Below, piece by piece: positions 24,359 to 58,645 of a DNA stretch of 64,000 bases (position 1 is the stretch's first letter; every line of letters begins with the position of its first letter). The notes under the pieces were generated by a model. It ran no database searches and was not told the DNA's origin. It worked only from the letters and a program-made list of their open reading frames with translations. The translations under genes and the position numbers were made by a program. This DNA is from Histomonas meleagridis (taxonomy: Eukaryota > Parabasalia > Tritrichomonadida > Dientamoebidae), in the NCBI GenBank assembly GCA_020186115.1, contig WSYJ01000157.1, positions 744,001-808,000 on the forward strand, written 5' to 3'.

Positions 24359-25522
24359 ATGAGTACATCAAAGATAAATTCCTTTCCAGACTTAATTGCA
24401 CTTACAGAAATAATTTATAACATAAATACAAACAATCTTGATACATCTGTTTCTTCATTACGCAAATTTTATGATAATTCACGAACGTATTCATTCAACT
24501 TGATCATCTGCCGTTTCATTTACACTTTGTTTGTAACAAGACTGAAAAATATAGATATAATTATTGAGTTTTTGAATTTAATTGAACGAGATGAAAATAA
24601 AAATCAAGTTAAAATAATTGACATCTTTTCTCAATTCCTTCGGAAAAATAACTCACAAGAATCTAATTATCTTATCGGAAAGTTGATAGAAAAAGGTTTA
24701 ATTAACTCATCGATTACTAAAAATATGAAAAATTTATTTTTTTCACATTTTAAAGCAAATTTCGTTTTAAACTATAGTTATCAATTTTCTGAATATTTCT
24801 CCAAAAACCTTGAAAAACTTAAAGCGAATAATTGGGAACTTCATCAGAAATATGTTAAAGAAGGAATAAATCAGAATGAAATTGCGAAAATAATTCGGAA
24901 TGATGAAATAGAAAAACTTCAAGAAATATCATAAGAAACAAACTTCGATTTTAATCAAACAATAATACCATCACTTTATGAAAGATATTCAATTATAAAT
25001 AAAGAAAATGTTACATTAATTGATTATGCAGCATTTTTTTCTTCAGTTAAATGTTTTAAATATTTACTTATGAATGGAGCAAAATTAGATAAAACAGGTA
25101 AATATGCAGTTGCAGGTGGAAATGAAGAAATAATTCATTTATGCGAACAAAATCATTCAACATTTGAAGATGCATATGAAGCAGCAATAGAATTTCATCG
25201 AAATGATATATTTAAATATTTTTATGATAATAAGTTAAAAGAAATTAAGAATTTAGAAGAATTAGGAGCAAAATGTGTTTTACATGATAATTATGAACTT
25301 TTATCATTTTTACTTAAAGAAGGAATGAAAATAAATGAAAATATTCTCATTGCTTCAATCATAACAGGGAATTTATATATTACTCAATATTTTCTCGAAA
25401 GTAATCATATTCCTATTGATTTTTTGAAAATTTCGGGTTTTTCTGGAAATGTGGAACTTTATAACTATTTAATTAACAATAGATACATTGATTTTAGCAA
25501 GATTGTTTGCTTATTTCATTAG
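24359..25522 (+). pseudogene. DUF3447 N-terminal module of ankyrin gene 1, with premature TAA
   Basis: This frame encodes a ~388-codon protein paralogous to the one at 31017. It has an N-terminal helical segment, then NQNEIAKIIRNDEIEKLQEIS, then TLIDYAAFFSSVKCFKYLLMNGA and the DUF3447-type repeats (GKYAVAGGNEEIIHLCEQN). A TAA at 24932-24934 interrupts it, where two paralogous copies (about 31617 and 16786) have CAA. The rest stays open. An ankyrin array follows after a 60-bp spacer (25586-26868). Whether the locus is dead or the stop is polymorphic cannot be told from one sequence. Confidence 0.75.
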
Positions 25523-25585
25523 ATTTTTATTAAAATATTTCATCGTTTCATAAAAATTTTTAAATTTTTTTTTTAAATATTTTTA

Positions 25586-26868
25586 GCACTAACAAATGCT
25601 TCAAAAAATGGTTATACAGAAATAGTTAAATTACTTCTTGAAAAAGAAGTAATTGATATTAATGCTAAAAATGAAATTTATATTAATAATTTTCGATTAC
25701 AATATAATATTTGGAAATTAATTAAATTATATGATACAGCACTTATGATTGCATCTGAAAAAGGTTATACAGAAATTGTTAAATTGCTTCTTGATCAAGA
25801 AGGAATTGATGTTAATGCTAAATCTATTTATTTGTTTTAAATAAAATTTATTTTTATAATTTTATATTTCAAAATAATATTTGGGAATTATTTAAATTAT
25901 TTTGGACAGCACTTATTAGAGCATCTGAAAATGGTCATACAGAAATAGTTAAATTACTTCTTGAACAAGAAGGAATTGATATTAATGCTAAAAATATTGA
26001 TTTTTTTTATTTGATATTTATTTTAATAATTTTATATTTCAAAATAATATTTGGAAATCATTTAAATTATTTTGGACAGCACTTATTAGAGTATCTTCAA
26101 ATGGTCACATAGATATAGTTAAATTACTTCTTGAACAAGAAGGAAATGATATTAATGCTAAAGATATTTATTTTATTTAATATTTGTTTTAATAATTTTA
26201 TATTTCAAAATAATATTTGGAAATTATTTAAATTATTTTGGACAGCACTTATATGGGCATCTTATGAAGGTCATACAGAAATAGTTAAATTACTTCTTGA
26301 ACAAGAAGGAAATGATATTAATGCTAAAAATATTGATTTTTTTTATTTAATATTTGTTTTAATAATTTTATATTTCAAAGTAATATTTGGAAATTATTTA
26401 AATTATTTAGGACAGCACTTATGTATGCATCTAGAGATGGTTATACAGAAATAGTTAAATTACTTCTTGATCAAAAAGGAATTGATATAAATGCTAAAGA
26501 TATTTATTTGTTTTATTTGAAATTTATTTTAATAATTTAATATTTCAAAATAATATTTGGAAATTATTTAAATTATTTAATACAGCACTTATGTTGGCAT
26601 CTGAAAAAGGTCATACAGAAATAGTTGAATTACTTCTTGAACAAGAGAATATTGATATCAATGCTAAAGATATTTTTTTGTTTTATTTAAAATATTTTGA
26701 AATAATATGAAATTTCATATAAACATTTGGAATTACTTATAAACATATAAAACAGCGCTTATGATAGCATCAGAAAAGAAAAATGCAGAAATTATTCGAT
26801 TATTTGCAGACAAAATTCAACATCATAAATGTGACGACATAATAAAATTAAAAGATTCTCAAGGATAA
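25586..26868 (+). repeat. Ankyrin-core tandem array 1 (170-nt period)
   Basis: Eight ankyrin-repeat cores (pattern TALMxASxxGHTEIVKLLL then EQEGIDINAK), each about 29 codons and each open, lie in tandem. The shared ACAGC starts fall at 25736, 25906, 26076, 26242, 26412, 26582 and 26752, a spacing of 170 nt (once 166). Spacers between cores are 83 nt in five cases, 79 in one and 66 in the first. They mostly contain stops and change frame, and share the block ATTTGGAAATTATTTAAATT. The last core ends with a distinct C-terminal tail and a TAA at 26866. If the spacers are not removed from the RNA, the array cannot be translated as one protein. Confidence 0.85.
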
Positions 26869-28404
26869 AAGAGTTAATATTTAAATATTGAAATAAACAT
26901 TTCCTAAATTCAGTTTGTTTTCATATATTATTATTAACGCATTTCATTTGATTAATATTATTATTATATGAATCAAAATTTGATAAATATAATATTTTAT
27001 ATCATATTTCATTGTATGATTTTCATATAATTTGATGATAATTTTTGTGAAAAAAATGAAAAAATTCATAACAACAAAAAATTAATTATGATTCATAGTA
27101 TTATTTACTCTTAATATTTAATGGAAATCTATTAAGTACACCTTATTATTTTTAGTCCCATAATACAAAATATTTGTATGGAATCGTACCAGCTACCCTT
27201 TTGGTCATTGATCATTTTTTTTTTCTTCTTTCCGATCAGAGATTTTGAGTAAAATTTTATCGGAAACCACATGAAAAGTGACATTTTTAACGTGCTTATG
27301 ATCATTGATCATCCATTTTTTTTCACTCGACTTTTTGTAAATTTTACATAACGATAGAAACGATATTGTATAGTTTATGCTTTCAAATTTTTTTTCGATA
27401 AGTGACTCTTTACACCAAGTGAAATTAAATTAATAAAATTGAATAAAATAAGTGCCGTTTTGTATCATATAAAATTAAATTAAAAAAATTGAATGTGATA
27501 ATTGTCGTTTCGCATTGATCAAAATTGAATAAAAAAATTCAATTCAAAAAATCATCTTGTTCGTGTGTGCGCCATATTTTCAAATAAAACTAAGACTATT
27601 TAAACAACCATTTCCTGTAGAATAAATTTTAATTTAGCGAAAAATTCGTGTACCAAGCGCTTATGGTCATATTGATTGACCTTGTGAAAATTATCACAAG
27701 TTTTCTTGCATGTATTTTTTCCTCAATCAAGCATAGTCATCGAATAGATCATGTGAAAAGAAACCTACCTACAACAAAAAAGCATCTAAAATAATTCAGA
27801 TAAAAATCTATTGTGGATTTTATGATTAAATAATTCAACTGCATATAGATATTACGAGGCATAATGAAGGCTTCCATTGTTGGTGAAAAATAATATAATG
27901 GCTTTTTTGTTCTGTGTTTCATTTTTGTTTACTTGTTATGTTGATGCAAGTTAATTTATTTTTGGGTTTGGATTTCAAATTATTTTGGTATTAGTGCTAA
28001 GAAATAATTGGAAGGAGTGAGTATCGGTTGTTTTTTGTTCGCGAAGTAGTTTAACTATTTCTATCTGTACAGATCAATGTCATGATGATATATTCATAGA
28101 AGTAGGCAGGGTACCCTGTACGATAGGAATCAAATAACCCACAATTTCAATGTATTAAAAAAGTTTGTGAAACGCAGAACCAAATAAAAAAACGATTCGT
28201 TGGAAAATGATTTTCCTGTTTCCAAAACTGCACTGAAGGCGTTATTCAAGGTTCGAAAGAACCCAGATTTTTTTGTGAAGGATATTAACATAATTAATAT
28301 GCGCTTTTAGCTAACACAATTAAACAAGCTGAGAAATGTACGTTATGTTGTAAAGGTGTAAACAATTTTTGCTATAGAAAAACTTGACAAACGAATGGAA
28401 TTCA
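26869..28404. other. Intergenic region with imperfect repeats
   Basis: 1.5 kb without a supported gene. I see a palindromic GATCATTGATC-type string twice (27207 and 27299) and an imperfect duplication of an AAATTAAATTAATAAAATTGAA-like block around 27420-27540. The final ~100 bp should contain the promoter of the CLASP-like gene. Confidence 0.5.
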
Positions 28405-30540
28405 ATGGCTTACGATGGTTCTTATAGTTTCTTGGAGCTGGATTTTGGTTTTCTTGAGCCTTCTGATTTAAATAATCTACAATCAACAGACTACAATCAA
28501 AGGATTTCAATTTCGCAAAAACTTCTAGATACATTTCAACAAATTGACACTAAAAAGATCGAATTATCAAACCTTCTACAATTTTTGGAAAAAGTAATAA
28601 ATGATGAAAATTTCTCTGTCGCACAAAACTTGTCGTCATTTATATCAAAGTTAATAGCAAAAGTTGATCCAGATGAGATTAAAAAGAATCTTAGATATTT
28701 TATTTCAATTGCAATTACGCAATTGTTAGATAGCCGGAGATTTATTTTTCATCTAGGTCAAAATCTTTTATGTGATCTTATTACAATTCTTGATGATGAA
28801 GTTGTAATTCGTCAAATAGCATCACAAGTAACTCCATCAGCAAAATCATATACTGCAGTTTTTCGGTGTATTACAAGTCTTCTTTCACAAGGTTTAGTTA
28901 AGCCCTTGACTCTTATTCAATTTCCATTTTTCTTCGATGATGCATTAAACATTAATCAAACCTCTGTAAGACAAGCTATTCTATGGTGCCTTGATAACAT
29001 TAAAAAGATTGAGCCTAAAACGTATGATATTCTCATCAGTCTATTATCCAAAAACTCGATTAACATCATCACCAAAGGAAATTATGACACAAAAAGAGGC
29101 CAAGAATGGGCTAGGCAAATTAATACAGCAGAGAACGTAACACTCAAATCTCTTTTTTCAGCCAAACAAATACCAAAAATTAACAACACATCAAATGGAC
29201 ATAGCTACCAAAGACCTCTTCTCCCAAGTGGAATGAAGCAACGTAATCAAGCAGTTCTTGGTTCAATCCCTTCTCGACTAATTTCAACATCACATACAAC
29301 ACCGGTCAATAATGATTTAACTGATTCATTAGAGACAAATCAAAACCTTTTATCAAACGAAAACAATTTTTCGAAGACGCAAAGTATTTTTCTTCCAAGC
29401 ACAATACTTGATGATGAAGATGTTATTGAATCACCTGTCGAAGAAGAAGAAGAATTTGAAGAGAAGCAGCCATCGCCACAAACTTTCCCTCCTCCTTCTA
29501 ATGCATTTAGTAAGACACAACCAATTCCCACTCCAGACAATTTTGATTTTCTAGATTCACCAAAAAACGAAACCGAAAATAAACGGTCTGTTATTAAACG
29601 GTCTCCAGTACATAAACGGCTTATCAACAGAGATGTGATTATCAAAACTCGAAGCCATAGCATTACTACCAATTCTTCCCATAATATTCTAAGCGACTAT
29701 GCAGCTATTGATTCACAGCCAATTCAAACTTCAGGACATTATGATTTAGGTGATGGAAGTTCATCACCAATTCAATCAGATGTTGAATCTAAGTCTAAGT
29801 CATTAGTTCGGCCCAAACCTAAGCCACGACAACTTCGTGTTAAACCTCGAAGACAATCCAATACGACATTTCCAGTTCCACCACCCAAGAAGCAAGCTCC
29901 CAAAGTTACCTTCCAAAGCGTATATGAGCAGCTCAGTAACAGTGAGTGGAATGTCCAAAACGACGGTATCCTTAATCTCATTCCCAATATTGATAAATTT
30001 ATCACACCGATTATTACCAATCTTAAGGACATTATTATGATACTACTTGAATGTTCGTCCTCATTACGTTCCACGTTAGCCAAAAATGCCCTTAACTGTT
30101 TACTTAAGTTACTTAAGAATGACAAAATTGATTTCGATCGAATTGCTGATTCAATTGCTCCTAACATATTACAGTTACTTACTTCGAGTCATCACTTTAT
30201 ATCATCATTAGCTGGTGAATGTTTCATTGCGCTCATTAATGCGATTCCTATTCAGCAGTCCATTGACATATTAATACGTGAACATAATCGTAAACACGCA
30301 GCATGTCGAATTAAAATTGCGTTTTGTTTGTCAACAATAATAAGCAAAACTACAAATTACTCGAAGCTAATGAAGACGTTGGCCGATTTAATGGGGGACG
30401 CAAATCAGGAAGTTCGGAAATACGCAAAATGCGCCGTGTGCGACGTGGTGAACAATGTCGACAACTTCGACCAATTGCTGGCAGATAACTTGCAAAATGA
30501 TACTGATAGAAACGTTTTACGAAATGCAATTGCTAAATGA
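28405..30540 (+). CDS. CLASP/TOG-domain microtubule-associated protein
   Basis: A 711-aa HEAT/TOG-like protein. Residues 1-240 form an N-terminal helical-repeat region (SVAQNLSSFISKLIAK, FIFHLGQNLLCDLITIL). Residues 240-520 are Ser/Pro/Arg-rich linker with SPVEEEEEFEEKQ and basic PRPKPR-type stretches. Residues 520-711 are a second TOG-like unit (YEQLSNSEWNVQNDGILNLI, DANQEVRKYAKCAVCDVVNN). The two-TOG-plus-basic-linker layout fits CLASP or the TOGARAM group, which bind tubulin and stabilise microtubules; crescerin-type ciliary function is an alternative. The start is the ATG at 28405, since the frame upstream has only non-ATG codons. The last ~150 nt (30370-30490) are GC-rich compared with the rest. 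Confidence 0.65.
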   Translation: MAYDGSYSFLELDFGFLEPSDLNNLQSTDYNQRISISQKLLDTFQQIDTKKIELSNLLQFLEKVINDENFSVAQNLSSFISKLIAKVDPDEIKKNLRYFISIAITQLLDSRRFIFHLGQNLLCDLITILDDEVVIRQIASQVTPSAKSYTAVFRCITSLLSQGLVKPLTLIQFPFFFDDALNINQTSVRQAILWCLDNIKKIEPKTYDILISLLSKNSINIITKGNYDTKRGQEWARQINTAENVTLKSLFSAKQIPKINNTSNGHSYQRPLLPSGMKQRNQAVLGSIPSRLISTSHTTPVNNDLTDSLETNQNLLSNENNFSKTQSIFLPSTILDDEDVIESPVEEEEEFEEKQPSPQTFPPPSNAFSKTQPIPTPDNFDFLDSPKNETENKRSVIKRSPVHKRLINRDVIIKTRSHSITTNSSHNILSDYAAIDSQPIQTSGHYDLGDGSSSPIQSDVESKSKSLVRPKPKPRQLRVKPRRQSNTTFPVPPPKKQAPKVTFQSVYEQLSNSEWNVQNDGILNLIPNIDKFITPIITNLKDIIMILLECSSSLRSTLAKNALNCLLKLLKNDKIDFDRIADSIAPNILQLLTSSHHFISSLAGECFIALINAIPIQQSIDILIREHNRKHAACRIKIAFCLSTIISKTTNYSKLMKTLADLMGDANQEVRKYAKCAVCDVVNNVDNFDQLLADNLQNDTDRNVLRNAIAK

Positions 30541-31016
30541 CATTCGATTTTTTACTCGTTTGTTCTGTATTATTATTAAAGGAAATTCGTTTAAATTTTT
30601 TAATTATTTTTTAATATAATAAAAATAGAATTCGTTTTGTGGATAAACTCAACGTTTATCATATTAACATTTATGAGAACTAAAGCAATTCTCTAAAATT
30701 ATCAAAAAGGAAAAGATGCAGAACCTAATGTATATTGATGATTGGAGTAAGAGTTTAAGCATATGTATGTAATAAAGTTATATTACTTACAAAACAAAAA
30801 AAAATATATACAAACTAAATTTATAGCATATTGGTGAAAAGGTTTAACAAAAGTATAAAAAGTTTTGAAGTCCTTGTGAAAGATTTGCATATTGCATAAA
30901 AAAGTATGATATAATAAAGATAAAATTCTTGTGCTAGGGAATATTCCTAATGAAGGTACCTCTCTGTGGAAATTGGTCATAACCGTTTTTATCCCTCACT
31001 TTAAAATCAGATCAAA
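30541..31016. promoter_or_regulatory. Intergenic spacer and promoter of ankyrin gene 2
   Basis: AT-rich spacer. Just before the ATG at 31017 it contains CATAACCGTTTTTATCCCTC (30978-30997) and then TCACTTTAAA, matching the Myb-type box plus a possible initiator seen at other genes. Confidence 0.45.
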
Positions 31017-32240
31017 ATGGAATCGACGAATTCAAATAAAAAAATCGATAATGAGTTAGAAAAACTTCAAATGGTTCAAAAGACAATTTTCGGGTTAAAT
31101 CAAGAAAATATTGATCAAACAGTAAAAGAAATAATTGAAATTTTTGATAAAAATTATCCATTATCATTTAATATAATTATTATTCAGTTGATATATCGAT
31201 TATTTGTTAATAAGATCGAAGATTTTTCATTATATTTTAAATTTATTAATAAAATAAAAATATTTGAAGAAAACAATGGGATTACATTGAATATTTTTAA
31301 CATAAATAAAACATTTCTTCTTCAAAAATGTACACAAGAATCAAATTATATTATTTATCATATGATCAAATATAATTATTTTGAACCATCAATCGTTAAA
31401 AATGAAAACAATCCGTATTTTGCTCATTACATGACAAACAAAGAAATTAGAAGAAATCAAACAAATAATTTTATGAAATATATTCACAAAAATATTAATA
31501 AACTTAAAGCAGATAATTGGAAACTTCATAAAGAATTTATTGAAGAAGGACATAACCCAAATGAAATTGCAAAAGTAATTCGAAATGATGAAATAGAAAA
31601 ACTTCAAGAAACAACATCACAAGAAAATTTTGATTTTAATCAAACAATAGAACCATCACTTTATGAAAGATGTTCATTTGTTAATAATTGGGTTACATTA
31701 ATTGAATATGCAGCATTTTTTTCTTCAATCAAATGTTTTAAATATTTACTTATGAATGGTGCAAATGCATTTAATGCAGCTAAATATGCAGTTGCAAGTG
31801 GAAATGAAGAAATCCTTCATTTATGTGAGAAGAATCATTCATCATTCGAAGATTCATATGAAACTGCAATTGCATTTCATCAAAATGATATCTTTAAATA
31901 TCTTTATGAAAACAAAACCAATAAGAATATTAATTTAGAAGAATTAGGATTAAATTGTATTTTATATCAAAATTATGATGCATTTGCATTTTTATTGAAA
32001 GAAGGGATGAATATTAATGAAATTAATATTATTAATGAAATAGCAAGAAATGGAAATGTATTTCTTATCAAATATTTTGTAGAAAATAAACGAATTCCAA
32101 ATGATATATTGATGTCCTCTATAAAGGGAGGGAACAATGAACTTGTCATCTATATTTTAGAACAGAAAATAATTGATATTAATTTTAAAATCATTTTTTT
32201 GGTTCCTATGAAATTTATTTTTCTGATTATATATTGCTAA
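31017..32240 (+). CDS. DUF3447/ankyrin protein, N-terminal module of ankyrin gene 2
   Basis: An intact 407-codon frame. The N-terminal ~190 residues are the helical module common to this family in the window (FNIIIIQLIYRLFVNKIEDF, HNPNEIAKVIRNDEIEKLQE). Then come PSLYERCSFVNNWVTLIEYA and DUF3447-type ankyrin-like repeats (AKYAVASGNEEILHLCEKN, AIAFHQNDIFKYLYENK, NGNVFLIKYFVENKRIP). The frame ends with a hydrophobic tail (about 15 codons) that is really the first intercore spacer, so the natural C-terminus probably involves the array at 32273-33681. Such proteins are greatly expanded in trichomonads; their function is unknown. This copy lacks the premature stop of gene 1. Confidence 0.7.
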   Translation: MESTNSNKKIDNELEKLQMVQKTIFGLNQENIDQTVKEIIEIFDKNYPLSFNIIIIQLIYRLFVNKIEDFSLYFKFINKIKIFEENNGITLNIFNINKTFLLQKCTQESNYIIYHMIKYNYFEPSIVKNENNPYFAHYMTNKEIRRNQTNNFMKYIHKNINKLKADNWKLHKEFIEEGHNPNEIAKVIRNDEIEKLQETTSQENFDFNQTIEPSLYERCSFVNNWVTLIEYAAFFSSIKCFKYLLMNGANAFNAAKYAVASGNEEILHLCEKNHSSFEDSYETAIAFHQNDIFKYLYENKTNKNINLEELGLNCILYQNYDAFAFLLKEGMNINEINIINEIARNGNVFLIKYFVENKRIPNDILMSSIKGGNNELVIYILEQKIIDINFKIIFLVPMKFIFLIIYC

Positions 32241-32272
32241 ATAATATTTGGAAATTATATAAATTATTTAAC

Positions 32273-33681
32273 ACAGCACTTATGATTGCATCTGAAAAAG
32301 GTTATACAGAAATTGTTAAATTGCTTCTTGATCAAGAAGGAATTGATGTTAATGCTAAATCTATTTATTTGTTTTAAATAAAATTTATTTTTATAATTTA
32401 ATATTTCAAAATAATATTTGGGAATTATTTAAATTATTTTGGACAGCACTTATTAGAGCATCTGATAATGGTCATACAGAAATAGTTAAATTACTTCTTG
32501 AACAAGAAGGAATTGATATTAATGCTAAAAATATTGATTTTTTTTATTTGATATTTATTTTAATAATTTTATATTTCAAAATAACATTTGGAAATTGTTT
32601 AAAATATTTGAAACTGCACTTATTTTAGTATCTTCAAATGGTCACATAGATATAGTTAAAATACTTCTTGAACAAGAAGGAATTGATATTAATGCTAAAG
32701 ATATTTTTTTGTTTTATTTAAAATTTATTTTAACAATTTAATATGTCAAAATAATATTTGGAAATTATTTATATTATTTAATACAGCACTTATGAAATCA
32801 TCTGAAAATGGTCATACAGAAATAGTTAAATTGCTTCTTGAACATAAAGAAATTGATGTTAATGCTCAAAATAACATTTATTTTGATGACATATATTTTC
32901 ATAAAATTATTTAATAATTAATTAAATTATTTTGGACTGCACTTATATTTGCATCTAGATTTGGTTATATCAATATTGTCAAATTGCTACTAGAGCAAGA
33001 AAAAATTGATATCAATATTAAAAATGTTCTTTATTTTTTAGTAATGTTCATTTTAATAATTTGGTATTTCAAAATAATATATGGAAATTATTAAAATTAT
33101 TTAAAACATCACTTATGATTGCATCTGAAAATGGTTACATAAATATCGTTAAATTGCTTCTTGATCAAGGAGGAATTGATATTAATAGTAAAAATATTTA
33201 TTTATCATATTTTTTATTTATTTTAATAATATGATATTCCAAAATAATATTTGGAAATTATTTGAATTATTTAAAACAGCACTTATTTTAGCATCTAAAA
33301 ATGGATTTACTTCGATAGTTAAATTACTTCTTCAACATGAAAGTATTGATATTAATGCGCAGACCTTTTTTTTATTTCATTTTATATTTATTTTAATAAT
33401 ATTATATTTTAATATGATATTTGGGGTTTATTCATCTGAATTATTACAGCACTTATGGAAGCATGTAAAAGTAATCACACAGAAATAGTTAAATTACTTC
33501 TAGAGCAAAAAGATATTGACATTAATATTAAAAATTTTTATATGTTTTATTTGAAATTTCATTTTCTGGCATTGGATTTCTCAGCAAAATTTGGAAATTA
33601 TTGAAACAATTTTATACAGCACTTCATTTTGCATCACAAAATCCCATAAAAGATTTAATTCGTTCTAAGCTCGAAAGTTAA
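32273..33681 (+). repeat. Ankyrin-core tandem array 2 (170-nt period)
   Basis: Nine ankyrin cores, all open, with starts at 32273, 32443, 32613, 32783, 32936, 33106, 33276, 33446 and 33616. The period is 170 nt except one 153-nt step. The spacers, including the one before the first core, are 83 nt in eight of nine cases and 66 nt in the other, even where their sequences have diverged strongly (33540-33615 for example). The first two cores and spacers correspond to units 2 and 3 of array 1, so the two loci share ancestry. The array ends with LHFASQNPIKDLIRSKLES and TAA at 33679. Confidence 0.85.
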
Positions 33682-58122: not shown

Positions 58123-58645
58123 GTATATGTTACGCTGTGATGTTACATACGAGTGTGTACTTGTGTGAATATTAATAATATATGATGACTTATGAGCATA
58201 TGTTACACTGTGATATTATATACGAGTGTGTACTTGTGTGAATATTAATAATATGTGATGACTTATGAGCATATGTTACATTGTGATGTTATATACGAGT
58301 GTGTACTTGTGTGAATATTAATAATATATGATGACTTATGAGCATATGTTACACTGTGATATTATATACGAGTGTGTACTTGTGCGGATATTAATAATAT
58401 GTGATGACTTATGAGCATATGTTACATTGTGAATATTTATAATATGTGATGACTTATGAGCATATGTTACATTGTGATGTTATATACGAGTGTGTACTTG
58501 TGTGAATATTAATAATATATGATGACTTATGAGCATATGTTACATTGTGATGTTATATACGAGTGTGTACTTGTGCGGATATTAATAATATGTGATGACT
58601 TATGAGCATATGTTACAGTGGGATGTTATATACGAGTGTGTGTTA
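58123..58645 (+). repeat. 73-bp minisatellite, about 7 units
   Basis: Tandem units share ATATACGAGTGTGTACTTGT and GATGACTTATGAGCATATGT. GAGCATA occurs at 58194, 58267, 58340, 58413, 58458, 58531 and 58604: spacing 73 bp with one 45-bp truncated unit. Units differ at a few sites (ATATGATG/ATGTGATG, TGTGAA/TGCGGA), so the order shows alternating subtypes. The array fills most of the gap between the choline-transporter-like gene and the Sec7 gene, ending about 140 bp before the Sec7 ATG. Confidence 0.95.

Follow-up and report, generated by a model that had tools for sequence, protein, structure and literature searches.

Two ankyrin arrays in the window

The stretch of DNA analysed here, called the window, comprises 64,000 nucleotides (nt) of the Histomonas meleagridis assembly GCA_020186115.1 (contig WSYJ01000157.1, positions 744,001 to 808,000 of the forward strand; coordinates below count from its first letter). 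It carries two ankyrin arrays, each behind an N-terminal region with DUF3447 and ankyrin repeats, and the spacers between their repeat cores are made of single codons set apart by pieces of 17 nt, which we call elements. Together the arrays hold 17 cores and 16 spacers, 13 of the latter being 83 nt long, two 66 nt and one 79 nt. A first-pass annotation, made from the letters alone, had described both arrays, and its coordinates (25586-26868 and 32273-33681), spacer lengths and 170-nt period are all correct; Tandem Repeats Finder places the period of 170 at 25674-26739 and 32171-33565. Its 17 open cores are right in number, and 16 of them are open over about 29 codons, but the last (33616) reaches a stop after 21 residues. 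The last of the spacers (33533-33615) was parsed by eye.

The N-terminal region is intact in the right gene. In the left gene DUF3447 is found in the second open reading frame (ORF) of the region (25070-25522), and an in-frame TAA stands at 24932-24934, where it corresponds to query residue 201 in a tblastn comparison with the right gene. The two regions align as a single tblastn stretch at 49% identity. Although its array looks normal, the left gene is a possible pseudogene.

Layout of the spacers

Column conservation across 83-nt spacers brings out variable triplets at 20-nt spacing within otherwise constant sequence, and each such spacer reads as codon-17-codon-17-codon-17-codon-17-codon. 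The commonest 17-mers, ATTTATTTGTTTTATTT, ATTTATTTTAATAATTT, ATTTCAAAATAATATTT and AATTATTTAAATTATTT, are AT-rich. The five isolated codons encode D/N, K/N/D/E, Y/D/N, G (215 of 242 spacers) and W/K/E/R/N, a profile that equals D-x-x-G-x, the ankyrin hairpin that precedes T-A-L and is missing from the cores. All six cores tested match Pfam Ank at positions 4-31 of 33, so that five positions remain for the five codons; provided the 17-mers are skipped, the 33-residue motif with its D-x-x-G-x-T-A-L hairpin is complete. The arithmetic is 170 - 4 x 17 = 102 nt, or 34 codons, with 68 nt skipped in total. The earlier proposal that 71 nt are removed to leave a 33-residue unit, with repeats as exons and spacers as introns, therefore gives way to a repeat of 34 codons whose spacer holds five codons, three of them variable and selected, and four skipped 17-nt pieces. 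Three 3' junctions that had been flagged as anomalous for lack of AG are unremarkable, because the element ends just before the codon preceding T-A-L.

The assembly searched holds 43,276,120 bases in 121 contigs. As a genome query, a unit close to those of the window gave at least 113 matches, with 40 of 1734 first-look candidates scored. The sample used below consists of the window and 37 further loci, chosen as the best matches to one window unit, a choice that over-represents canonical units. A DNA profile search of this sample yielded 386 cores and 335 spacers bounded by two cores, among them 242 spacers of 83 nt, 20 of 66 nt, 12 of 80 nt, 12 of 86 nt and 11 of 63 nt, the rest being scattered.

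Element length is constrained. Automatic segmentation made 1239 of 1293 elements exactly 17 nt and resolved 293 of the 335 spacers into codons and 17-mers only (34 with three elements, 258 with four, one with five); it is imperfect, leaving 42 spacers unresolved into pure 17-mers and returning some 16-nt elements that are a codon plus a shorter piece. A 66-nt spacer is 15 + 3 x 17, lengths of 63 and 80 nt mean one codon fewer and 86 nt one codon more, two elements can be placed by eye in gaps of 46 and 49 nt, and gaps of 20, 6 and 59 nt (L012, L022, L019) adjoin degenerate cores. Elements of 16 or 18 nt (36) are commoner than those of 14 or 20 nt (9), and such single-base changes would be expected of excised pieces, unlike translated ones.

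Translated straight on from the core, spacers (e.g. 25823-25905) give a hydrophobic stretch rich in I, Y, L and F that often ends at a stop, and unprocessed transcripts might yield an N-terminal protein with a hydrophobic tail.

Selection on single codons, elements and cores

Stop expectations were drawn from base composition, with columns taken as independent and kinship ignored, and other registers and genome-wide counts served as controls. At the three variable isolated codons (spacer offsets 20, 40 and 80) there are 0 stops in the 242 spacers of the 38 sequences, against 11.1, 13.1 and 39.4 expected; offsets 0 and 60, where no stops are expected, are uninformative. Observed stops broadly track expectation in the remaining registers of the 81, zeros occurring solely where at most 2.5 were expected, and 2000 column shuffles per site never reached zero at the variable codons (minimum 4, 3 and 28). 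Genome-wide, the pattern AATTATTTNNNACAGCACTT, with 17 fixed bases, has 2175 exact matches as opposed to 0 for its reversed control, so the array pattern is not due to chance. The last isolated codon is a stop at four of these 2175 sites (3 TAA, 0 TAG, 1 TGA), with about 350 expected at the sample rate of 16%, and the third at 0 of 1037 exact sites, with about 56 expected. Of the four genomic stops, one (L051) belongs to the final unit of its array, two (L052 and L054) stand before stop-bearing cores and one (L053) is in a normal-looking unit; the core stop of L052 perhaps marks a short last exon.

The cores avoid stops as well, with 16 in frame among 335 cores against 190 expected, while the two other frames hold 637 against 683 and 1795 against 1757. 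Nine of the 335 cores bear stops. The earlier view of the cores as coding sequence under selection is borne out by these figures.

At the variable isolated codons 24-26 codon types occur, yet almost no stops, and their ratio of nonsynonymous to synonymous substitution (dN/dS) is 1.4-1.5 (240 units). Element sequence is constrained too, for random pairs differ by 0.164 per site in the elements and by 0.236 at synonymous sites. Since the isolated codons change fast, almost never to stops, and the 17-mers are conserved, the single codons are under selection, and the 17-mers between them appear to be skipped. On these sequence patterns we regard it as solid that selected single codons are set apart, throughout the genome, by a class of 17-nt elements; that the elements are skipped and the codons between them kept is very probable. 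The idea that spacers are skipped thus survives for the four 17-mers and fails for the spacer as a whole.

Two other readings were set aside. A single intron of 71 or 77 nt per spacer is ruled out, as triplets within the spacer are under codon selection, and an in-frame reading of the 66-nt spacers is open in just 11 of 20.

The family across the genome

The arrays of the sample follow an N-terminal DUF3447/ankyrin region, with no match to that region in four of the 38 sequences (L024, L033, L036, L041). A protein search with the N-terminal region of the right gene returned, among the best 102 of 3299 candidates, the region itself and 101 relatives at 50-57% identity, each with an open frame of 383-541 amino acids. 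By eye, 45 of these 102 also show one or two stops. The last 16 residues of the query are spacer, and in L030, L039 and L040, the three checked of the 45, all stops fall at residues 396-405, within this tail. Of 39 array ends listed, 24 reach a stop within 12-38 residues.

As a rough extrapolation, scaling the 2175 matches by the 147 of 335 spacers that carry the exact motif gives about 5,000 hairpins genome-wide and, at 3.86 per hairpin, about 19,000 elements. An equally rough figure of about 700-800 arrays comes from 73 matches in about 25 clusters (by eye) on contig C1.

Features of the window

Coordinates of the two genes are collected in Table 1. Two parses in it were made by eye: in the spacer at 26163..26241, where automatic segmentation gave one 16-nt element, and in that at 33023..33105, where it placed the first element at the spacer start. 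A CLASP/TOG-domain gene (711 amino acids, 28405-30540) lies between the arrays on the same strand. Further along, a 73-nt tandem repeat of about seven copies (58125-58641, 93-95% matches) is flanked by two long ORFs. An Rfam scan of the window gave no match, and a tRNA scan found none.

Table 1. Parts of the left and right ankyrin genes; hairpin residues are those of the isolated codons, and [17] stands for one element
Feature	Position	Strand	Details
Left N-terminal ankyrin/DUF3447 region	24359..25522	+	ORFs 24359-24934 and 25070-25522
Left, most of diverged first spacer	25523..25582	+	no clean 17-mer parse by eye
Left core 1	25583..25669	+	contains ALTNASKNGYTEIVKLLL
Left spacer, 66 nt	25670..25735	+	aat gaa [17] tcg [17] gga [17] gat; three elements
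Left core 2	25736..25822	+	Pfam Ank positions 4-31 of 33
Left spacer, 83 nt	25823..25905	+	codons 25823-25825, 25843-25845, 25863-25865, 25883-25885, 25903-25905
17-nt elements of the preceding spacer	25826-25842, 25846-25862, 25866-25882, 25886-25902	+	
Left core 3	25906..25992	+	
Left spacer, 83 nt	25993..26075	+	N-D-Y-G-W; four 17-mers
Left core 4	26076..26162	+	
Left spacer, 79 nt	26163..26241	+	gat, 13-nt first element, then N-Y-G-W with three 17-mers
Left core 5	26242..26328	+	
Left spacer, 83 nt	26329..26411	+	N-N-Y-G-R
Left core 6	26412..26498	+	
Left spacer, 83 nt	26499..26581	+	D-E-N-G-N
Left core 7	26582..26668	+	
Left spacer, 83 nt	26669..26751	+	D-K-E-G-K; elements diverged, every one still 17 nt
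Left terminal exon	26752..26868	+	own stop codon
Right N-terminal DUF3447/ankyrin region	31017..32189	+	intact, 391 codons to ..DINFK
Right first spacer, 83 nt	32190..32272	+	atc [17] gaa [17] tat [17] gga [17] aac = I-E-Y-G-N
Right core 1	32273..32359	+	Pfam Ank match
Right spacer, 83 nt	32360..32442	+	S-K-N-G-W
Right core 2	32443..32529	+	Pfam Ank match
Right spacer, 83 nt	32530..32612	+	N-D-Y-G-E
Right core 3	32613..32699	+	
Right spacer, 83 nt	32700..32782	+	D-K-N-G-N
Right core 4	32783..32869	+	
Right spacer, 66 nt	32870..32935	+	aat aac [17] ata [17] aat [17] tgg
Right core 5	32936..33022	+	
Right spacer, 83 nt	33023..33105	+	N-N-G-G-K at fixed 20-nt slots
Right core 6	33106..33192	+	Pfam Ank match
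Right spacer, 83 nt	33193..33275	+	N-F-D-G-K
Right core 7	33276..33362	+	
Right spacer, 83 nt	33363..33445	+	T-Y-Y-G-I
Right core 8	33446..33532	+	
Right spacer, 83 nt	33533..33615	+	aat [17] gaa [17] tgg [17] gga [17] tat = N-E-W-G-Y
Right terminal exon	33616..33681	+	21 residues and stop

Element-free hairpins and relatives

Two ankyrin genes of the same genome (L046 and L047) have continuous repeats and a hairpin without elements. A search for the empty hairpin, with a pattern that specifies GG and allows up to three mismatches, gave 30 near matches, of which 27 are distinct. Position 1 is N or D in these 27, the G is present in 26 of them, and the other positions are mostly K, N, D or E; the isolated codons resemble them in profile, but are richer in W and Y. 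The exact empty hairpin with the flanks of the array family has 0 matches in the genome, and the last hairpin of one array (L016) lacks elements and reads D-N-D-G-F. A further region (G000:C39:63287-65836) contains many element-free ankyrin hairpins, some at 90-nt spacing.

Outside this assembly, eight proteins from European Nucleotide Archive (ENA) contigs (P0001-P0008) are 44-55% identical to the N-terminal region, and most of them terminate within or close to the first spacer. The end of P0001, D-IYVFYS..TFGVYSNCFIRHL, has the length and layout of a Histomonas spacer (aligned by eye). Three further proteins (P0011-P0013) have continuous ankyrin repeats without elements. Two N-terminal family members of H. 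meleagridis annotated as 'caskin' (P0009 and P0010) carry long low-complexity inserts (N-P-rich and E-N-K-rich) within the domain. Viral contigs yielded no relative with one protein query and none with one element pattern.

How the elements might be left out

On the reading that we prefer, the arrays would be expressed ankyrin-repeat genes of Histomonas meleagridis in which the D-x-x-G-x hairpin of most repeats is split by AT-rich 17-nt elements, usually four, between neighbouring codons. The elements would be left out precisely during gene expression, each hairpin codon would be a 3-nt exon, and after excision the repeat would become a continuous 34-residue ankyrin repeat. We put at roughly 0.57 the probability that the 17-mers are micro-introns cut out of RNA, with exons of 3 nt left between them. 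We infer this route rather than a ribosomal one, together with a responsible enzyme, transcription of the arrays and the roles of the proteins, from the sequence. A number of observations weigh against it, and they concern the state of the genes, the signals in the elements and the path of translation.

The state of the genes is mixed. Among the 33 arrays with a substantial N-terminal match, that region is broken by stops, frameshifts or gaps in 13 (by eye, the left gene of the window, L009, L010, L011, L013, L014, L015, L018, L019, L022, L029, L031 and L035), and 20 match without a stop before residue 392, also judged by eye; L021 and L045 have short matches and fall outside the 33. Part of the ankyrin family is thus decaying, which speaks against a view in which every array is expressed. 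Taken whole, the cores have a dN/dS of 0.87-0.93 (240 units). The conserved codons give 0.66-0.69 and the variable ones 1.20, a split that is partly circular, the two classes having been chosen by eye on the same data. The first-pass annotation had staked its idea against a core dN/dS near 1 combined with stops in other copies, and half of this was found, stop-bearing cores being so few.

These data have to be weighed against a recently amplified dead array, the alternative offered by that annotation. Besides the dN/dS of the cores and the broken copies, it would account for array units that are 81-99% identical in DNA between loci, compared with 50-57% for the N-terminal proteins. The stop statistics of the cores and of the much diversified isolated codons contradict it, as do the open frames of the 102 best N-terminal matches. 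Stops do not occur at a neutral rate across the family, while individual loci do look decayed; the nine stop-bearing cores lie in five of the 13 broken loci, in two of the 20 intact ones and in two without a full match (by eye), as though just some loci decay. A dead array is very improbable.

Isolated codons are free of stops behind broken N-terminal regions too; to explain this, either the breaks must be recent or gene conversion must have acted. Such codons would fit silent cassettes, that is, arrays that donate by gene conversion to an expressed element-free copy and are selected indirectly. In their tandem order and variable positions, the arrays would be like repertoires of donors. In the 242 spacers the variable codons are nearly unlinked with one another and weakly linked to the flanking elements (lift up to 1.42), and the elements are linked among themselves across codons (lift 1.6-2.5). 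The codons could have become unlinked through rapid turnover or through shuffling at the level of codons. Conversion would, however, bring the 17-mers along, most arrays carry their own N-terminal region, and more than half of the listed array ends reach a stop of their own. An element-free array of the family was not found in the hairpin searches described above, where the one near match of the 30 inspected singly is the last hairpin of L016. The many broken N-terminal regions make silent cassettes and dead arrays slightly more probable, and both RNA excision and the skipping of 17-mers in general slightly less so; silent cassettes nevertheless remain improbable. At the N-terminal breaks of L010, L019, L029, L031 and L035, 17-mers were sought by eye and none was recognised.

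The signals in the elements offer RNA excision little help. GT..AG occurs in 0 of 968 elements, and no splice-site-like consensus emerges. The usual start of an element is AT or AA and its usual end TTT, in place of U2-type ends (GT-AG or AT-AC), and neither of the host motifs, GTATGT and CTAACACATAG, is in the element consensus. The earlier statement that the spacers lack canonical intron signals is confirmed. As a control, the same window has a canonical-looking 68-nt intron, GTATGT...CTAACACATAG, at 40142-40075 on the - strand. With up to two mismatches, the CTAACACATAG acceptor block occurs 13 times in the window against 13.07 expected, a chance level, and its only match within the array region is on the opposite strand. 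Of 78 diverged 17-mers (at most 12 matches to the slot consensus), 68 have A or G as their first base and 67 have T as their second, which hints at a weak 5' signal. RNA folds of six whole spacers have z values of -0.80 to +0.94 relative to shuffles, with no structure beyond chance, and the ends of the element consensus (ATTT.../...ATTT) cannot pair.

Elements without splice signals would suit translational skipping, the main rival to RNA excision, in which the 17-mers stay in the messenger RNA and ribosomes hop over each of them to make the same 34-residue repeats. At the codon level its data would be identical to those of RNA excision. The codon before an element equals the last triplet of that element in just nine of 968 cases, far from a match of take-off and landing codons, and the six folded spacers show no structure beyond chance. 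About 30 successive hops per protein on cytosolic ribosomes would, to our knowledge, be unprecedented. We consider this route unlikely.

In 227 of the 242 spacers a -1 path stays open across all four elements, and the stops alone are compatible with frameshifting. A programmed -1 frameshift in every 17-mer, for which 17 = 18 - 1 would be the right length, would translate the elements as six-residue inserts between hairpin codons. Open -1 paths are, however, about as common per element (239, 235, 238 and 241) as column composition predicts (240.3, 233.3, 241.8 and 240.7), which gives no sign of a selected path. The excess of 16- and 18-nt over 14- and 20-nt elements also speaks against it, the second and third elements would need the shift at different places with no common slippery site (by eye), and hydrophobic inserts would break the hairpin. 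Across the whole spacer, 195 of 242 have an open single-shift path (172 expected) and 140 an open downstream frame (95 expected); two stop-free codons that lie in the downstream frame can account for this excess. Frameshifting in every element is highly doubtful, slightly more so than silent cassettes. One frameshift per 83-nt spacer (195 of 242 against 172 by column shuffling) was also tried as a separate candidate and was superseded by the 17-mer layout.

Four further points count against RNA excision, one of them conditionally. At the level of the spacer, 3-nt changes (24 of 80 or 86 nt) are commoner than 1-nt changes (10 of 82 or 84 nt), and we read the former as a codon gained or lost. 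If the ENA contigs of P0001-P0008 are RNA, their read-through into the spacer speaks against splicing. A synthetic repeat found no near-identical continuous protein in the protein database, the best 120 of 6482 matches being 35-64% identical. Dozens of introns per gene would be needed, when reports of splicing in Histomonas and Trichomonas give at most one and exceptionally two.

Implications

At about even odds, we propose that a dedicated, hitherto undescribed RNA-processing (or ribosome-skipping) system in Histomonas, and probably in close relatives, removes some 20,000 17-nt elements without GT-AG and leaves one-codon exons. The elements stand at hypervariable hairpin codons of what would be several hundred ankyrin genes, and they may let these codons diversify or shuffle independently. 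The dN/dS above 1 at variable hairpin and helix positions suggests a diversifying binding repertoire.

If this is true, the intervening sequences of 17 nt would be tens of times as many as the 573 annotated introns, with exons down to one codon and no known recognition signal. Such a system would challenge the limits of splicing or of ribosomes and would be a new way of encoding a protein surface that varies. For this poultry parasite it would also mean that the annotation of a large gene family probably covers little beyond the first exon. A search of open-licence literature found no report of 17-nt elements, of multi-intron ankyrin genes in Histomonas or of such single-codon exons. In the available sections of the paper on the virulent-strain assembly, 573 introns are reported, at most one per gene, genes were predicted by AUGUSTUS trained on a transcriptome, and the word 'ankyrin' is absent from the main text (PMC8529796).

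Comparison with known systems

Ordinary trichomonad DUF3447 ankyrin genes share the N-terminal DUF3447 and the ankyrin repeats, whereas those compared here (L046, L047 and P0011-P0013) have continuous repeats and no elements. The internal eliminated sequences of Paramecium, like the 17-mers, are short interruptions of coding exons, as described in the available parts of PMC8354472. They differ in being removed from DNA during macronuclear development. We know of no second nucleus in Histomonas.

The inserted blocks of Magnusiomyces mitochondria and the bypassing of phage T4 gene 60 resemble the 17-mers as frame-disrupting inserts that are skipped at expression, and the take-off and landing rule is relaxed in several cases in these yeast mitochondria, according to the portions of PMC5009743 at hand. 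Unlike them, the 17-mers are nuclear, occur in thousands of copies beside single codons of one protein motif, and rarely have matching take-off and landing codons. The noncanonical introns of euglenids and diplonemids also lack GT-AG, occur beside canonical introns and are removed by an unknown route, as far as the consulted sections of PMC4770533 and PMC12621601 describe them. In those introns base pairing joins the ends, whereas the Histomonas spacers fold no better than shuffles and their element ends cannot pair.

Closest in size are ultra-short spliceosomal introns, of 15-16 nt in Stentor coeruleus and 23-28 nt in type B introns of Trichomonas, an intron-poor relative (PMC9505925 and PMC12316389, in the sections available). 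Like the 17-mers, they are very short and near-constant in length. Stentor introns mostly start with GU, end with AG and have a fixed branch adenosine, in contrast to the 17-mers with their complete lack of GT..AG. Motifs mark the 5' site, the branch and the 3' site of Trichomonas introns, whereas the Histomonas arrays would combine single-codon exons with dozens of elements per gene.

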